A DNA stretch of 64,000 bases from Lysobacterales bacterium 63-13 (GTDB taxonomy: Bacteria; Pseudomonadota; Gammaproteobacteria; Xanthomonadales; Rhodanobacteraceae): NCBI GenBank assembly GCA_001899855.1, contig MKWR01000029.1, positions 141,212-205,211 on the forward strand, read 5' to 3'. The notes below the pieces were generated by a model. It searched no databases. It was not told where the DNA came from and was given only the letters and a program-made list of their open reading frames with translations. How positions within the stretch are numbered: the stretch's first letter is position 1; the number at the start of each line of letters is the position of its first letter. Shown piece after piece: positions 35,134 to 43,189 of this stretch. The position numbers and the translations under genes were made by a program.

Positions 35134-36090
35134 TCAGCCCAGCGCGGCCAGCCACTCATCGTCGGAACCCTCGTTGACGCCCTCGAACAAATAGGTCGAC
35201 AGATAGCGTTCGCCGGTATCCGGCAGCATGGCCAGGATCACCGAACCCGCTTTCGCCTCGCCGGCAATCTCCAGTGCGCTGGCCAGGGTGGCACCGGCGG
35301 AGACGCCGGCGAAGATGCCTTCCTTTTGCGCCAGCAGTCGCGCCGTATCACGGGCGACGGTGTCGTCGACGGTGAGGATGCGATGGGCAACATTGCGATT
35401 GAGCACGGACGGGATCAAGTCCGGTGTCCAGCCCTGGATCTTGTGCGGCTTCCATTCCTTGCCCGAGAGCATCGCCGCCGCCGCCGGTTCACTGGCGATG
35501 ATCTGCACTTCCGGGCGAGCCAGGCGCAGCACTTCACCGACGCCGGTCAGGGTGCCGCCGGTGCCCCAGCCGCTGACGAAATAATCGAGGCGCTTGCCGG
35601 CGAAGTCGCGCAGGATTTCCGGGCCGGTGGTATTGCGATGCCAGGCGGGATTGGCCGGATTGTCGAACTGCGCACTGAGGAACCAGCCGTGCTTTTCCGC
35701 CAGTTCGCGGGCCTTGGCGACCATGCCGGTGCCGCGCGCCGCCGCCGGCGTGAGGATGACCTTGCCGCCATAGGCACGGATCAGCTTGCGCCTTTCGATG
35801 GAGAAGGTTTCCGCCATCACCGCGACGAACGGATAGCCGCGCGCGGCGGCGACCATGGCCAGGGCGACGCCGGTGTTGCCCGAGGTTGCCTCGACGATGG
35901 TCTGCCCGGGTTTCAGCTTGCCGCTTTTCTCGGCATCGAGGACCACCGCCAGGGCGAGGCGATCCTTGACCGAGCCACCCGGATTGAACGACTCGACCTT
36001 GACGAAGAGGTCGATGCCCGGCGGGGCGAGGCGCTGCAGCTTGACGACCGGAGTATTGCCGATCGTGTCGAGGATGGATGCGTAGGACAT
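35134..36090 (-). CDS. cysK: Cysteine synthase (O-acetylserine sulfhydrylase)
   Basis: This PLP enzyme makes L-cysteine from O-acetylserine and sulfide. The 318-residue protein has PLP lysine 42 in NPGGSVKDRLA, the phosphate- and substrate-binding loop EATSGNTGVALA, the GWGTGGTLTGVGE turn, and GVSAGATLAS. The sequence is nearer CysK than CysM by length and by the C-terminal GERYLST segment. The ATG at 36090 has AGGAAC 9 nt upstream. It lies 19 nt downstream of cysG on the same strand, so cysteine synthesis and siroheme synthesis are transcribed together. Confidence 0.95.
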   Translation of the reverse strand: MSYASILDTIGNTPVVKLQRLAPPGIDLFVKVESFNPGGSVKDRLALAVVLDAEKSGKLKPGQTIVEATSGNTGVALAMVAAARGYPFVAVMAETFSIERRKLIRAYGGKVILTPAAARGTGMVAKARELAEKHGWFLSAQFDNPANPAWHRNTTGPEILRDFAGKRLDYFVSGWGTGGTLTGVGEVLRLARPEVQIIASEPAAAAMLSGKEWKPHKIQGWTPDLIPSVLNRNVAHRILTVDDTVARDTARLLAQKEGIFAGVSAGATLASALEIAGEAKAGSVILAMLPDTGERYLSTYLFEGVNEGSDDEWLAALG

Positions 36091-36109
36091 GGGATGGTGT
36101 TCCTTGTAG

Positions 36110-37540
36110 TCAGGCAGCGCGCAGAACATGCGCTTTGTCGACCGGGATGGTCAATGGCTGCGGGCCAAACCAGTTGAGCTGATCGGCCAGGGCAGCGACT
36201 TCGCCAACAATCAACAGGGTCGGCGACTGCAGGCGATGCTGGCGGGCGCTGCTGGCGAGGTCGCCGAGCGTGGCGCGAACCACGCGCTGGTCGGGGCGCG
36301 AGCCGTTTTCGATGAGGGCAATCGGCGTTTCCGGTGCACGTCCGTTTTCGATCAAGTTGCGCTGTATTCGCGGCAGTTCGCCAACGCCCATGTAGACAGC
36401 CAGGGTCTGACCTGGCGCGGCGAGCATGCGCCAATCGAGGGTGTCGATCGATTCGCGGCAATGCGCGGTGAGCAGGCGCAGCGATTGCGCATGTTCACGA
36501 TGGGTCAGCGGGATGCCGGCATAGGCGGCACAGCCGATTGCCGCGGTGATCCCCGGGACGACCTCGAAATCGATCGCGTGCGCGCGCAGGAACTCCAGTT
36601 CCTCGCCACCGCGACCGAACACGAACGGGTCGCCACCCTTCAGGCGCACGACGCGCCGGCCGGCGTTGGCATGTTCGAGCATCAATGCGTGGATGCGATC
36701 CTGCGGCGTCTGCGCGCCGCCGCCCTGCTTGCCGACTTCAATGAACAGCGCGTCGCGGCGGGCCAGTTCGAGGATCGGCGTGGAGACCAGCCGGTCATGC
36801 AGGATCACGTCGGCTTGTTGCAGGGCGCGCAAGCCGTGCAAGGTCAGCAGGCCCGCATCGCCGGGGCCGGCACCGACCAGCACCACCGAGCCGCGTGGAT
36901 TCGGCATGGTGACTTCGGCGAGTGCGGCTTCCAGCGCGCGCTCGGCAGCAAGCGGACGATCGCGGCGCAGCTCGGCGGCAACCTTGCCGCCGAACAGGGT
37001 TTCGAGGAACGCGCGGCGTCGCGTCAGATCCGGGAAGCGCGCGCGGATGCGCTGGCGATAGCGGGCGGCCAGCGCCGCCAGCGGGCCAAGCGAGGCATCC
37101 AGCAAGGATTCGATGCGTTCGCGCAGCAGGCGCGCCAGCAGCGGTGCCGCGCCGGCCGTGGAAATGGCAATCAGCAAGGGGCTGCGATCAACCACGGCGG
37201 GCACGTGGAAGCTGGACAGCTCGGCATCGTCGACGACATTGACGAACACGCGGCAACGTTCGCCTGCCGCCGCGATGCGCCGATTCAGCGCCCGATCCGC
37301 AGTGGCGGCGACGACCAGCCAGGCGCCCTGCAGCCAGTCATCCGCAAATTCGGCTCGATGATGGCCGATGCTGCCGCTGGCAACCCACAGCGCCAGTTGC
37401 CGGCTGATCCGCGGCGCACCGACCTGGATGTCGGCACCGGTCTTGCGCAGCGCGGCGACCTTGCGCTCGGCAACGTGGCCACCACCAACGACAAGCACGC
37501 GTTTTCCACGCAGGTTGGCAAACAGGGGATACAGGTTCAT
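36110..37540 (-). CDS. cysG: Siroheme synthase CysG (dehydrogenase/ferrochelatase fused to uroporphyrinogen-III methyltransferase)
   Basis: CysG makes siroheme, the cofactor of sulfite reductase, from uroporphyrinogen III. The 476-residue protein has an N-terminal NAD-dependent precorrin-2 dehydrogenase/ferrochelatase domain (1 to about 210), with [13 protein letters not shown] and the conserved [12 protein letters not shown]. It is fused to a SAM-dependent uroporphyrinogen methyltransferase (about 218-476), with [19 protein letters not shown] and [17 protein letters not shown]. Both domains are complete. The ATG at 37540 gives the canonical [19 protein letters not shown] start. A tandem GACGTC palindrome lies 84 nt upstream. 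Confidence 0.96.
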
Positions 37541-37623
37541 GGCCGGCAAGCTAGGAGCAGTCCGTCGCCAGCGGAAATGCCATTCGCTCAGGCGCATATG
37601 CGAAACGGTGATGAGGGCGGAAA

Positions 37624-37639
37624 GACGTCTAGACGTCCA
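37624..37639. promoter_or_regulatory. Tandem met-box-like operator upstream of cysG
   Basis: AGACGTCT directly abuts AGACGTCC: two 8-bp near-palindromes in tandem, the first identical to the enterobacterial MetJ consensus (AGACGTCT). Read toward cysG it is GGACGTCT-AGACGTCT. The same arrangement occurs before cysJ with 14 of 16 positions identical. It lies in the 264-nt region between cysG and the divergent cysB-like gene. No MetJ gene is in this window, so the protein that binds is not known. Confidence 0.65.
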
Positions 37640-37804: not shown

Positions 37805-38803
37805 ATGACCCTGACCCAGTTGCGCTACATCGTCGCCATTGCCGACGCCGGCCTCAACATCACCCTGACCTCCGAGCGCGTGCATGCGACCCAGCCGGGT
37901 ATTTCGCGTCAACTGCGGCAGCTTGAGGACGAGCTGGGCTTCCAGATCTTCCTGCGCAAGGGCAAGAGCCTCGAATCCATTACCGCACCCGGTGCCCAGG
38001 TCATCGCCCGCGCCCGCAGCATCCTTGCCGAGGCGGCGAACATCCGCGTGCTGGCGGCCAACCTGCGCAACGAGAATGCCGGCGAGCTGGTCCTGGTCAC
38101 CACGCATACCCAGGCGCGCTTCGTCTTGCCCGCGGCCATCGCCAGGATCAAGCGCCGCTATCCCGCAGTCGGCATCCGCCTGGAGCCGCATGGCGATACC
38201 GAATTGATCGACCTGCTCGGCAAGGGTGCCGCCGATCTGGCCATCATCAGCACCGCGAGTACGCCGCCAAACGCCGAACTGGCCATCCCGATCTTTCGCT
38301 GGGATCGACAGATCCTGCTGCCGAAAGACCATGCCCTGGCCAGGCTGGGCCGCGTGCCGCGCATCGACGAGCTCGCCGCGCACGCGCTGGTCAGCTACGA
38401 ATCCTCGCTGGCGCCGGAATCCTCGCTGCGCCGCGCCATCGTCGAGGCCGGCTGCGAGTTGAAGCTGGCCGTCGCGGCGCGCGATGCCGACCTCATCAAG
38501 ACCTATGTGCGCGCCGGCCTCGGCATCGGCGTGCTCGCCGAAATGGCGCTGGATGACGCGGATCGTGCCGATTTCTGCGTCTATTCGGCGCGCGGCCTGC
38601 TGCCGTCCTGCACCAGTTGGGTGATCCTGCAGCGTGATCGCGTGCAGCGGGACTACGCGCTTGACCTGATTGTCGCCCTGGCCCCGCAGATCGATCGCCG
38701 CGATCTGGTTCGCGTCGTCCAGGGTGCCGCCGCCGCCAACTGGCCGCCGCCACCGCATTGGCGCGAACTCAAACCACGGGAATCGGTGGTTCGCGCGGCC
38801 TGA
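37805..38803 (+). CDS. cysB: CysB-like LysR-family transcriptional regulator
   Basis: CysB-type activators respond to O-acetylserine and switch on sulfate assimilation genes. The 332-residue protein starts MTLTQLRYIVAIADAGLNITL, with the HTH segment ATQPGISRQLRQLEDELGFQIF (about 28-50). The effector domain has TTHTQARFVLPAAIARIKRRYP, the CysB/Cbl signature, followed by GAADLAI. CysB rather than Cbl is favoured by position between cysG-cysK and cysHIJ, but the two cannot be separated by eye. It is divergent from cysG and convergent with cysH. A much longer frame extends upstream but is the mirror of cysG. Confidence 0.9.
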   Translation: MTLTQLRYIVAIADAGLNITLTSERVHATQPGISRQLRQLEDELGFQIFLRKGKSLESITAPGAQVIARARSILAEAANIRVLAANLRNENAGELVLVTTHTQARFVLPAAIARIKRRYPAVGIRLEPHGDTELIDLLGKGAADLAIISTASTPPNAELAIPIFRWDRQILLPKDHALARLGRVPRIDELAAHALVSYESSLAPESSLRRAIVEAGCELKLAVAARDADLIKTYVRAGLGIGVLAEMALDDADRADFCVYSARGLLPSCTSWVILQRDRVQRDYALDLIVALAPQIDRRDLVRVVQGAAAANWPPPPHWRELKPRESVVRAA

Positions 38804-38851: not shown

Positions 38852-39577
38852 TCAAACTTCCAGATGGATGCCGCACTCGCGCTTGAGGCCGAAATAGCGG
38901 GTGTCTTCCTCGCGCATGCCGGGTTGCCATGGGCGCGTCGTGTGCACGTCGCCGATGGAGACATAGCCTTCGTGCCACAGCGGGTGGTAGGGCAGGTCGT
39001 GGCGGCTGAGGTATTGCCGGATGTCGCGGTCGTTCCAGTCGATCAGCGGATGCATTTTCCAGCGCCCGTGCCTGAGCTGGAGCACGTCGACGTTTTCGCG
39101 CGTGCTGGCCTGGCTGCGGCGCAGGCCGGCGAACCAGGTGCGCGCGCCGAGTTCCGCAAGGGCGCGACGCAGCGGTTCGACCTTGCGCAGGTTGTCGTAG
39201 CGACTGAGGCCTTCGAGGCCTTGTTCCCAGAGGCGGCCATGGCGCGCCTCCATCCAGGCGCGACCGAGCTTTGGCCGGTAGACATGCAGATCGAGCTCGA
39301 GTCGCTCGGTCAGTTCATCGGCAAAACGATAGGTTTCCTCGAACAGGTAGCCGGTATCGATGAGGATCACCGGCACCTTGCGGCACTGGCGACTGACCAG
39401 ATGCAGGGAGACCGCCGCCTGCGCCCCGAAGCTCGACGACAGCACATGCTGGTCCGGCAGCGTTTGCAGCGCCCAGGCCACGCGCTCCTCGGCGCTCCGC
39501 GTTTCCAGCCACTGGTTGAGGATGGCCAGGGCGCGCGAATCCTCGGCGGCCGCGACCAGATCCGGAAGCATGCTCAT
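38852..39577 (-). CDS. cysH: Phosphoadenosine phosphosulfate (PAPS) reductase
   Basis: CysH reduces PAPS to sulfite using thioredoxin. The 241-residue protein has the PP-loop-like segment [17 protein letters not shown] near residues 45-61, [17 protein letters not shown], and the C-terminal [10 protein letters not shown] with the single catalytic Cys. The extra paired cysteines that ligate an iron-sulfur cluster in APS reductases (CC...CxxC) are absent, so PAPS is the substrate. Its start overlaps the cysI stop by 4 nt, making it the last gene of cysJIH. Confidence 0.95.
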
Positions 39578-41265
39578 GCGATCACCTCCAGGGGGATGCC
39601 GGCAGCGGGTCGAACGACGCCAGCGCGCACCAGGAAATCGCCGAACGCTTCCGCGGCATTGCGCTCGGCCGCGTAGCGCGCAAACAGCGTGTCGAGATGG
39701 GCAAGGATCGCGGCTTCATCGATGTTCTCGGCGTACAGCGCGTTGAGGCGCTGGCCGCGGCGATCCGCGCCGAGCATGAGGTTGTAGCGCCCGGGCGCCT
39801 TGCCGACGAGGGCGATCTCGCCGAGATACGGACGTGAACATCCGTTCGGGCATCCGGAAATGCGCAGGTGGATCGGCGCATCGGCGAGCGCATGCTTCTC
39901 CAGCAGGCCTTCGACCTTGCCGAGCAGGTCGGGCAGGTAACGTTCGGCCTCGGCCATGGCCAGGCCGCAGGTTGGCAGGGCCACGCAGGCCAGCGCATGC
40001 AAGCGCAACGGGCTGGCGCGTCGATGCAGATCCAGTCCATGCCTTGCGACCAGGGCATCGATGGCGGCGCGGTCTTCTGCCGCGACATTGGCGATGACCA
40101 GGTTCTGGTTTGGCGTCAGGCGGAAATCACCACGATGGCTGCCGGCGATCGCGCGCAAGCCGCTCATCGGCGTCGACGCGCCGCGATCGGCGATGCGTCC
40201 GGCTTCGATGCGCAGGGTCAGGTGCCAGCGACCGTCATGGCCTTCGCTCCAGCCAAAGCGATCGCCGTTGTGTTCGAACGCGAATGGGCGCGTGACAGCC
40301 AGCGCGAAACCGGCGCGGCGTTCGACCTCGCCCTTGAACCAGTCAAGGCCACGATCCTCGATCGTGTATTTGAGGCGTGCCCGCTTGCGCGCGCTGCGGT
40401 TGCCGAAATCGCGTTGCGTGGCGAGCACGGCCTCGGCGATGGCGAACAACTGATCGGGCGTGGCGAAACCGATGAGCTGGCCGAGCAGGGGATAAGTCTC
40501 GGCATCATTGTGCGTGGCGCCCATGCCGCCACCGACACTGATGTTGAAGCCGGCGAGCGCGCCCTCTTCGAGGATGGCGACGCAGCCGAGATCATGCGCG
40601 AAGACATCGACATCGTTGTGCGGCGGCACGGCGAAGGCGATCTTGAACTTGCGCGGCAGATACGTATCGCCGTACAGCGGTTCGCTTTCGGCCTCGCCAC
40701 CGGCAATGCGTTCCTCGTCGAGCCAGATCTCGTGGTAGGCACGGGTGTTCGGCTTCAGGTGCTCGGAGAGCCGCCGCGCCCAGTCATGCACGAGCGCATG
40801 TGCGGGCGACTCGACCGGATTCGCCGAAACCATCACATTGCGATTGACGTCGCCGCAGGCGGCAATGGTGTCGATCAGGCTGGCGTTGATGGCCTGCAGG
40901 GTGGCCTTGAGTTTGCGCTTGATCACGCCGTGGAACTGCAAGGCCTGGCGCGTGGTGAGTCGCAGCGAGCCGTTCGCATGGCGCGTGGCAATCGCATCGA
41001 GGGCCAGCCATTGCCGCGGCGTGACCACGCCACCCGGCGTGCGCGTGCGGATCATGAAGCTGTAAGCCGGTTCGAGTTTCTGCTGGCGACGTTCCTCGCG
41101 CAGGTCGCGATCATCCTGCTGGTAGCTGCCGTGGAACTTGATCAGTGCCGTGTCATCGGCGCGGATCGCGCCGGTATGCGCATCGCCAAGGCTCTCGCGC
41201 AAGCTGCCACGCAGGTGTCGGCTGGCCTGCTTGATCTGTTCGACGTTGGAGATGGGGGTAGTCAT
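39574..41265 (-). CDS. cysI: Sulfite reductase hemoprotein beta subunit
   Basis: CysI reduces sulfite to sulfide at a coupled siroheme and [4Fe-4S] centre. The 563-residue protein carries the two half-sites of cluster ligands near the C-terminus, [18 protein letters not shown] and [21 protein letters not shown]. It also has the N-terminal ferredoxin-like repeat [20 protein letters not shown] and the siroheme-binding GDVNRNVM. It works with CysJ, encoded upstream, and depends on CysG for siroheme. It overlaps cysH by 4 nt; the 87-nt gap to cysJ contains a large palindromic repeat. Confidence 0.97.
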
Positions 41266-41352: not shown

Positions 41353-43155
41353 TCAGTACACATCGCGCGCATAGCGACCCTCCTGGCGCAGGAGTTCGAG
41401 TTTCCCGGCCGCCTGTGCGCGATCACCATTGGCATGCCCGGCGAACACCTCGAGCAGGGTGTCCTCGACGTCGCGTGCCATGCGCGTGGCATCACCGCAC
41501 ACATACAGATGCGCGCCGTTGCCCAACCAGTCGAGAAGCTGGCGACTGTTTTCACGCAGGCGCTGCTGCACGTGGATCTTGCTGGCCTGATCGCGCGAGA
41601 AGGCGAGATCGAGGCGATGGAGACGACCCTCGCGCAAGGCTTCCTGCCATTCGACCTGGTAAAGGAAATCGCTGTGGAAACGCGGATTGCCGAACAGCAG
41701 CCAGTTGCGCCCGCTGGCCCCCCTCGCCGCGCGCTCCTGCACGAAGGCCCGATACGGAGCGATGCCGGTGCCGGCACCGATCATGATGATGTCGCGGCTG
41801 TCATCGGCAGGCAGGCGGAAGCGCTCGTTGCGTTCGATGAAAACCGCAATGCGCGTCTCGTCGCCGGCATCGGCAAGGTAGCCCGATGCCACGCCCTGAT
41901 GGCGGTGGCCAAAGGCCTGGTATTCGACATGGGCGACGGTCAAATGCGCTTCCTCGCCGACCAGCTTGCGGCTGGAGGCAATTGAATACAGGCGCGGGGT
42001 CAGCGGACGCAGGGCGTCGACCAGTTCCTCGGCGCCCCAGTCCGCCCGCCAGGCGCGCAGCACATCGGGCAACTGGTGACTGCCGAGCAGGGTGGCCAAG
42101 GCCGCCGATTGCCCTGTGGCAAGCAGGTGGTTCAATCCGGCATTGCCGGCCAGCGCCGCGTGACGGGCGAGAAATGGCCGGCCAATCCGGGTCAGCTCCC
42201 GGCGCACCTGCAACCAGTGACGCAACGGATGCGTTTCGCCGCCGTGGCTGATCGCGGCATCGCCATCCAATGCCAGCAGATCAAGCACGCTGTAGACGAG
42301 CGCGGTCGCGTTGCGTGGCCAGACGCCGAGCGCGTCGCCGGGCTCGTACTCAAGGCCGGAACCGTGCAGCGACAGTTCGAGGTGGCGGACATCCTTTTCA
42401 CTGTCGCGCGCGCTGATGCGCTGGTTGGCCAGCAGCTCGGCGGCAAACGGCGCATCGCGATCGTGCCGTGGCGTCGTCGCCACGGCGCGCAATGGCACCA
42501 CGCTGGCGCACGGCGTGGCTGCGGGTGTGGATTCGATGGCGTGATCAAGCGCCTGCCGACGCCACGGATCGGCAATGGTTTCAATGTCGAGATCCGCTTC
42601 GCCCAGGGCGAACAGGCGCTCGGCACCCAGCTCGGCGAGGCGCGCGTCGAGCTTGCGCGCAACCGCGTTGAACTGCGGATAGCTCGAGTCGCCAAGACCA
42701 AGCACGGCAAAGCGCACGCCGGGCAGTGGCATCGCGCGCTTGCCGGCCAGGTATTCGACCAGGGTGCGCGCATCATCCGGCGGATCGCCATCGCCCTGGG
42801 TACTGATGACAATGTAGAGAAGGCGCTCGTCCTTGAGCTCGCGCCGCGCGTACGCATCCGCGCGCAGCAGGCGCACCGCGCTGCCGGCGGATTCGATATC
42901 GGCGGCAAGGCGTTCGGCCACGCGTCGTGCATTCCCGGTCTGGCTGGCATACAGCACCGTGATCGGCGCGAGTGCCTGGGTTGGAGCCACTGCCGGTGCC
43001 AGCGCCTGTGGCTGCAACTTGCTGGCCAAACCGGCGCTGTAGCCGGACAGCCACCACAAGGCCTGCGGATCGAGGCCATCGACGAGGCGCGCCAGCTGGA
43101 TGCCCTTTTCACCGGCAATGGGTAATTGTGCTGGGGTGTGGATCTGGGCGGACAT
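41353..43155 (-). CDS. cysJ: Sulfite reductase flavoprotein alpha subunit
   Basis: CysJ passes electrons from NADPH through FAD and FMN to CysI. The 600-residue protein has a flavodoxin domain from about residue 65 (ITVLYASQTGNARRVAERLA), an FAD-binding reductase domain (RLYSIASS), and an NADPH site (MIGAGTGIAPYRAFVQERAA). It ends RYARDVY, as CysJ proteins do. The start at 43155 begins the usual short N-terminal extension; the longer upstream frame has no family similarity. A tandem met-box-like site begins 19 nt upstream of the ATG. It is the first gene of cysJIH. Confidence 0.96.
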   Translation of the reverse strand: MSAQIHTPAQLPIAGEKGIQLARLVDGLDPQALWWLSGYSAGLASKLQPQALAPAVAPTQALAPITVLYASQTGNARRVAERLAADIESAGSAVRLLRADAYARRELKDERLLYIVISTQGDGDPPDDARTLVEYLAGKRAMPLPGVRFAVLGLGDSSYPQFNAVARKLDARLAELGAERLFALGEADLDIETIADPWRRQALDHAIESTPAATPCASVVPLRAVATTPRHDRDAPFAAELLANQRISARDSEKDVRHLELSLHGSGLEYEPGDALGVWPRNATALVYSVLDLLALDGDAAISHGGETHPLRHWLQVRRELTRIGRPFLARHAALAGNAGLNHLLATGQSAALATLLGSHQLPDVLRAWRADWGAEELVDALRPLTPRLYSIASSRKLVGEEAHLTVAHVEYQAFGHRHQGVASGYLADAGDETRIAVFIERNERFRLPADDSRDIIMIGAGTGIAPYRAFVQERAARGASGRNWLLFGNPRFHSDFLYQVEWQEALREGRLHRLDLAFSRDQASKIHVQQRLRENSRQLLDWLGNGAHLYVCGDATRMARDVEDTLLEVFAGHANGDRAQAAGKLELLRQEGRYARDVY

Positions 43156-43173: not shown

Positions 43174-43189
43174 GGACGTCTGGACGTCC
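43174..43189. promoter_or_regulatory. Tandem met-box-like operator upstream of cysJ
   Basis: GGACGTCT abuts GGACGTCC, read toward cysJ as GGACGTCC-AGACGTCC. It matches the site upstream of cysG at 14 of 16 positions and sits 19-34 nt before the cysJ start codon, where a bound protein would block transcription or initiation. It also lies 142 nt before the divergent NYN gene. Confidence 0.65.

Follow-up and report, generated by a model that had tools for sequence, protein, structure and literature searches.

Two tandem palindromes standing before sulfate-assimilation genes in the window (the whole 64,000-nucleotide stretch of DNA analyzed here) very probably serve as operators for MetJ, the methionine repressor of the ribbon-helix-helix class that depends on SAM, a reading drawn from sequence comparison. 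One palindrome lies upstream of cysG and the other upstream of cysJ, amid the following features:

35134 to 36129, minus strand: cysK, cysteine synthase A, predicted co-target (TIGR01139, E = 1.3e-123, above cut-off)
36110 to 37540, minus strand: cysG, siroheme synthase, predicted target (NF007922, E = 4.4e-178, above cut-off)
37623 to 37638, no strand assigned: tandem met box, predicted MetJ operator (two adjoining 8-bp boxes, 16/16 to RGACGTCYRGACGTCY)
37805 to 38803, plus strand: LysR-type regulator of the CysB type, divergent from cysG (Pfam LysR domains above cut-off)
38852 to 39577, minus strand: cysH, phosphoadenylyl-sulfate reductase, last of the cysJIH run (NF002537, E = 5e-90, above cut-off)
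39574 to 41265, minus strand: presumably cysI, as we name the product, sulfite reductase hemoprotein subunit, 3' of cysJ (reading frame; relatives up to 77% identity)
41353 to 43155, minus strand: cysJ, sulfite reductase flavoprotein subunit, predicted target (TIGR01931, E = 9.6e-214, above cut-off)
43174 to 43189, no strand assigned: tandem met box, predicted MetJ operator (16/16 match)

The cysG-side site reads AGACGTCT-AGACGTCC (full 16-mer AGACGTCTAGACGTCC) and lies 98 to 83 bases upstream of the cysG ATG (37540), inside the region from which cysG and the lysR gene diverge. An earlier note on this DNA had recognized this site and placed it one base off, at 37624-37639 instead of 37623-37638. 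The cysJ-side site, GGACGTCT-GGACGTCC (full 16-mer GGACGTCTGGACGTCC), was found where that note had put it, as an exact match to the motif 34 to 19 bases upstream of the cysJ ATG (43155). When oriented toward their genes, the two sites (GGACGTCTAGACGTCT for cysG and GGACGTCCAGACGTCC for cysJ) are identical at 14 of 16 positions, the agreement claimed earlier, and their proposed likeness to tandem met boxes was borne out, with both matching RGACGTCTRGACGTCC exactly and (RGACGTCY)x2 at 16/16 positions. These are the only 16-mers in the window that score at least 13/16 against the latter pattern. At up to three mismatches to the motif the window contains four matches, i.e., the two sites counted on both strands. 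Shuffled windows gave a mean of 1.32 matches at this threshold and 8 of 100 reached four, which makes the lax count alone weak proof and is a point in favor of coincidence, under which the sites would simply be AGACGTCT-like words of a GC-rich genome.

Downstream of the first site, the cysG start used here is a chosen ATG (a TTG farther 5' would open a longer frame), and cysK follows 3' on the same strand and is presumably co-transcribed with cysG. The divergent LysR-type protein scored under the cut-off of the CysB equivalog NF009326 (E = 6.5e-77, 259.1 bits against 436), and its best NCBIfam match, a general LysR model, was also below cut-off (430.6 against 482). It is probably an activator of cys genes. 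This neighbor suggests a different use for the boxes, namely as binding sites of the CysB-like activator instead of MetJ, since both sites stand before cys genes and the gene itself diverges from cysG. We consider this highly unlikely. By eye, a TAGCAT-like hexamer occurs upstream of the cysJ box in several relatives, and the box appears to lie 3' of a likely -10 element, a placement that would fit a repressor; further evidence against a CysB site comes from the distribution of boxes in the source genome and its relatives, as described below.

For MetJ itself, the source genome (3.75 Mb, 36 contigs) encodes a single copy outside the window:

L001:1240-1755 (contig C27 of the source genome G000), minus strand: metJ, 171-residue frame

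This corrects the reservation in the earlier note that MetJ should not be assumed in this organism group, and answers its proposal to search for a MetJ-type regulator. The protein passes curated models, with 128.2 bits (E = 1.8e-37) for PF01340 (cut-off 25) and 133 bits for the MetJ equivalog NF003622 (cut-off 110), and residues 4-88 were aligned to the met repressor chains 1cma (E = 1e-32) and 1mj2 (E = 3.8e-32). In met repressors the KITVSIP strand contacts the operator and a later segment lines the SAM pocket; in the ribbon-helix-helix core of the source-genome protein, both the DNA-contacting strand and the corepressor segment appear to be retained. The C-terminal part of the 104-residue met repressor is missing, as the match to the MetJ profile stops at position 85 of 97, where a Lys/Ala tail takes over. 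The curated MetJ cut-offs are passed without this part, and we know of no evidence that it defines the family. With a basic tail in place of the usual end, this MetJ could differ from the known repressor in binding and in corepressor response. The suggestion that a methionine- or SAM-responsive repressor controls siroheme formation and sulfite reduction is thus supported, as far as sequence can indicate, by the metJ gene, by the places at which boxes occur and by their recurrence in relatives.

Exact places of RGACGTCYRGACGTCY in the 3.75 Mb of the source genome number three, against ~0.014 expected under equal base frequencies; one precedes cysG, another cysJ, and the third, C17:96042 (16/16), lies ~335 bases upstream of where an aspartokinase gene is called to start, farther than usual. 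Two further places have one mismatch, C24:18121 before metX and C27:155979 before metJ, and both belong to in-register runs of three boxes (C24:18113-18136 and C27:155971-155994); the gene called metX is nearest to MetX models, yet scores under their cut-offs. The 0-1 mismatch class therefore has five members, all of them preceding cys, met or aspartokinase genes, compared to one place for a reversed control pattern, and on these counts random occurrence in the source genome, which the earlier note had named as grounds for coincidence, was rejected: the places are not scattered. At three mismatches the motif is common (66 places per strand), which speaks for coincidence, and at the same time rarer than the reversed control (310 places); since the control outnumbers the motif here, only the 0-1 mismatch class is informative. 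The boxes before metX, metJ and aspartokinase, none of them cysteine genes, also argue against a CysB site, and boxes occur near these genes in relatives too.

The genes metE, metF, metH and metK are usual MetJ targets and were not noticed near strong boxes of the source genome. Eight loci around weaker places were inspected using crude frame calls. Four sites lie inside frames: C15:46719, whose frame we take to be that of a transporter, C4:35723, C2:70882 and C2:213128. Three more (C4:260575, C1:24157 and C2:182384) were inspected and not taken for targets, while C2:126296 (13/16, before leuA) was kept as a regulon lead. Boxes ~300 bases upstream of leuA (2-isopropylmalate synthase) were seen in the source genome (L148, the C2:126296 site) and in two relatives (L188 of G030 and L204 of G024), with scores of 13, 15 and 15 of 16, respectively; crude calls place all three within open frames.

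Recurrence of the boxes was assessed in relatives with and without MetJ. A scan with CysI yielded 80 named loci, in which the regions upstream of cysJ and cysG, where these genes were located, were each assigned their best tandem-box score, and MetJ status was taken from 49 genomes of this named set (12 with and 37 without MetJ), keeping regions in which the N-terminal part of the gene was located (cysJ in 45/49, cysG in 34/49). Scores of at least 13 upstream of cysJ were obtained for 9/12 genomes with MetJ and 0/33 without; upstream of cysG, the corresponding counts were 7/8 and 0/26. Dinucleotide shuffles of the MetJ-bearing regions reached 13 in only 15/2400 (cysJ) and 13/1600 (cysG) cases. 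Fisher values were 2.5e-7 (cysJ) and 1.5e-6 (cysG), although these overstate independence and are not strict probabilities because the MetJ-bearing genomes are kin. The exceptions upstream of cysJ were three of the 12 MetJ-bearing loci (L085, L110 and L124), and upstream of cysG it was L082, whose site scores 14 at -251, just beyond the scored region. The mean share of the commonest base was 0.88 in the sites and 0.44-0.62 in their flanks, a difference that motif-based site choice inflates in favor of the sites. The comparison of cysG and cysJ upstream regions that had been proposed earlier, carried out here on CysI-centered loci, thus found boxes in most relatives with MetJ and in no tested one without it. 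Such recurrence, far beyond that of shuffled regions, adds to the five near-perfect places of the source genome in making coincidence hardly credible.

The MetJ-less relatives without a box include Xanthomonas and Lysobacter, and among them are genomes with both CysJ and CysG, which would again speak against the boxes serving CysB, provided that these relatives keep the LysR gene. They also bear on a further possibility, that the boxes are bound not by MetJ but by a different regulator responding to methionine or SAH, for example SamR, the SahR-like protein of Xanthomonas. In its favor, a survey that included four Xanthomonadales genomes describes SamR as their methionine regulator (PMC4239095). 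The SamR motif as described there, a 24-bp palindrome sharing ATC-10 nt-GAT (PMC4239095), was not seen in either site by eye, and SamR/SahR was set aside because of this difference in motif. Moreover, the boxes track MetJ and metJ is itself preceded by the same box, so that we give very little credence to a SamR site and regard MetJ as the probable regulator that the boxes serve.

A second collection, the family set, comprised 31 genomes including the source (it may overlap the named set), with near full-length CysJ in 23 and CysG in 23. Boxes scoring at least 13 preceded 17/22 readable cysJ loci and 19/25 cysG loci; 5/22 cysJ loci and 6/25 cysG loci lacked one, two of the latter being second cysG copies. 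Loci from Rudaea and Dokdonella have the same metJ coordinates as genomes of the family group, and both genera are Rhodanobacteraceae by taxonomy. Beyond the family, CysJ was found in 15/16 genomes of the sister groups f163 and f165, which have MetJ; a cysJ box of at least 13 was present at -17 to -61 in 8/15 loci and absent from the other 7/15. One f163 genome (G704, locus L341, C8:8500-12500) has the order metJ, 13/16 box, cysJ, cysI, with metJ directly 5'.

Boxes were also abundant away from known targets. Across 45 family genomes, 564 places with 0-1 mismatches were counted, compared to 46 for the reversed control, and the motif exceeded the control in 43 genomes, equaled it in one and fell below it in one. 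Sixty loci around near-perfect boxes from seven relatives were examined using crude frame calls. A MetJ, MetX, aspartokinase, CysJ or CysG gene was present in 17/60 (14/31 in five relatives, 1/9 in G013 and 2/20 in G023), and the box lay inside a crudely called frame at 29/60 sites. That most near-perfect boxes in relatives such as G023 are off known targets is a further point for coincidence. Given this abundance in some relatives, either the regulon is larger or a search for boxes by itself predicts too many targets, and the numerous off-target boxes of G013 and G023 slightly lower our confidence in the operator reading. The counts vary between genomes, with 67 near-perfect tandem boxes and no control places in G015, and 26 to 30 boxes each in G007, G009, G020 and G023; such box-rich genomes may have either a bigger MetJ regulon or a spread repeat. 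A glutamate synthase gene would be an unexpected MetJ target. The large-subunit gene of this enzyme is preceded by a box at position 1501 in two loci (16/16 in L152 of G024 and 15/16 in L187 of G030), whose proteins are 38% identical to each other.

The Lys/Ala-rich tail of the source-genome MetJ comprises 93 of the 171 residues and starts at Met 79. It was present in 29/29 script-matched metJ loci (31 were read, including the range L025-L054), the shortest being that of L036, near the end of its own stretch. For 42 sequences with a readable junction, tails had a median length of 87 residues and consisted of 43% Lys+Arg and 33% Ala. No such tail was found for f163 MetJ in the eight loci read, and f165 MetJ, judged by open frames of 80-87 residues (two of five with an internal TGA), is probably without one as well. 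The presence of a cysJ box in about half of the loci of these tail-less sister groups suggests that MetJ control of cysJ probably predates the histone-like tail. The tail scored below the cut-offs of H1-like models (23.4 bits against 40 for HC2 and 35.2 against 80 for NF038053), so "H1-like" is used here as a label of composition and not of membership. A literature search covering few subscription papers returned nothing judged related on MetJ with a histone H1 C-terminal part, as far as the texts retrieved extend.

The codons ahead of the tail are conserved at the nucleotide level. Among 54 distinct sequences, the mean share of the commonest codon was 0.87 for codons 60-74 and 0.60 for codons 0-59, and shares of at least 0.95 were reached by 7/15 and 0/44 codons, respectively; the pattern was first noticed in 39 sequences. 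The hexamer GAGGAG lies 12 bases (45/54) or 9 bases (9/54) ahead of the in-frame ATG at the start of the tail, in a count that kept only sequences with Met at the junction (the lone Met-less family match, L047, ends at a contig edge). At up to three mismatches, a 27-base metJ element was found in 39/150 genomes, once each and all in the window's family, and in none of the other 111, and the idea that H1-like genes across the order share this stretch as a common leader was rejected. A structured RNA at the junction was likewise rejected: a single fold, with z = +1.10, gave no hint of structure, and the 10 Rfam matches for five metJ loci (E up to 1) were all under gathering scores, with none at the junction by coordinates. 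The stretch is possibly an internal translation start or another nucleotide-level element, of which the simplest reading would be an internal start that yields a free H1-like protein. We tentatively suggest that metJ of this family could be a two-in-one gene, specifying an H1-tailed MetJ as well as a free H1-like protein (from the GAGGAG and ATG) with a calculated mass of 9.3 kDa in the source genome, by which a SAM-gated repressor would be tied to a nucleoid-type coating of DNA, with a regulon including cysG-cysK, cysJIH and perhaps gltB and leuA; this is a doubtful proposal for now. If true, such a tail would unusually combine general with specific DNA binding in a repressor that is well understood, and the near-invariant codons ahead of it allow a hidden second product to be tested for directly.

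MetJ is spread over nearly all of the window's family, the Rhodanobacteraceae, with matches in 193/197 genomes (192 over cut-off) and 26/26 genera. At the level of the order it was found in 116/298 genomes (100 of the family, 11 of f163 and 5 of f165), and in a class-wide sample in 6/377, three of them outside the family. Three metJ matches have one TGA within the matched frame (L144, a Luteibacter metagenome genome, G643 and G650), which may be genuine or an assembly error. The available text of a published survey reports MetJ in 62 genomes from six groups and in none of its four Xanthomonadales genomes (PMC4239095), and its main text makes no mention of cysG, cysH, cysI, cysJ, cysK, sulfite, sulfate, gltB or leuA. 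The literature search, with few subscription papers covered, returned none linking MetJ with Xanthomonadaceae or Dyella, or a methionine repressor with Lysobacterales, and MetJ is already in print for one genus. The range of MetJ is hereby extended to the Rhodanobacteraceae, absent from the six groups of the survey, and to two sister groups of the order.

Taken together, we propose that when SAM is ample, MetJ dimers would occupy the paired boxes as neighbors, at or close to where transcription starts, with SAM presumably acting as corepressor for the source-genome protein as well. With the promoter expected just upstream of the boxes, bound MetJ would block the cysG-cysK and cysJIH transcription units, and the output of sulfide and siroheme would therefore be lowered once the methionine branch is well supplied. 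When cysteine is short, the CysB-like LysR protein would in turn activate cys genes. If true, the reductive part of sulfur assimilation comes under the direct control of a SAM-sensing repressor, and how much sulfide and siroheme is made depends on methionine status and not on cysteine status alone.

Compared to the E. coli-type met repressor (1cma, 1mj2), the alignment spans residues 5-89 of 104, and the KITVSIP strand and a 24-residue segment are common to both, whereas here the end of the protein is swapped for the 93-residue Lys/Ala-rich tail, which begins at an in-frame Met. This tail resembles bacterial H1-like proteins and tails, i.e., HC2, the Burkholderia H1-like proteins and AlgP of Pseudomonas, in being Lys/Ala-rich, repetitive, basic and presumably disordered, as far as the available part of PMC9239181 describes them; the HC2 and Burkholderia H1-like models match the MetJ tail weakly, under their curated cut-offs, and the tail differs from the proteins of that source in being fused to a specific repressor. 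The SamR/SahR system of Xanthomonadales, in the portion of PMC4239095 available, belongs to the same order and has the same metabolic task, but regulator and operator differ. A further parallel is the MetJ regulon of Enterobacterales and allied Gammaproteobacteria, which, according to the same portion of PMC4239095, likewise pairs a MetJ family repressor with tandem 8-bp AGACGTCT boxes and has targets including metJ, metL and homoserine acyltransferase genes. Unlike in that regulon, boxes here stand at cysG and cysJ and MetJ extends across nearly the whole family, and the predicted placement of cysJ under MetJ is an extension of the usual target set.
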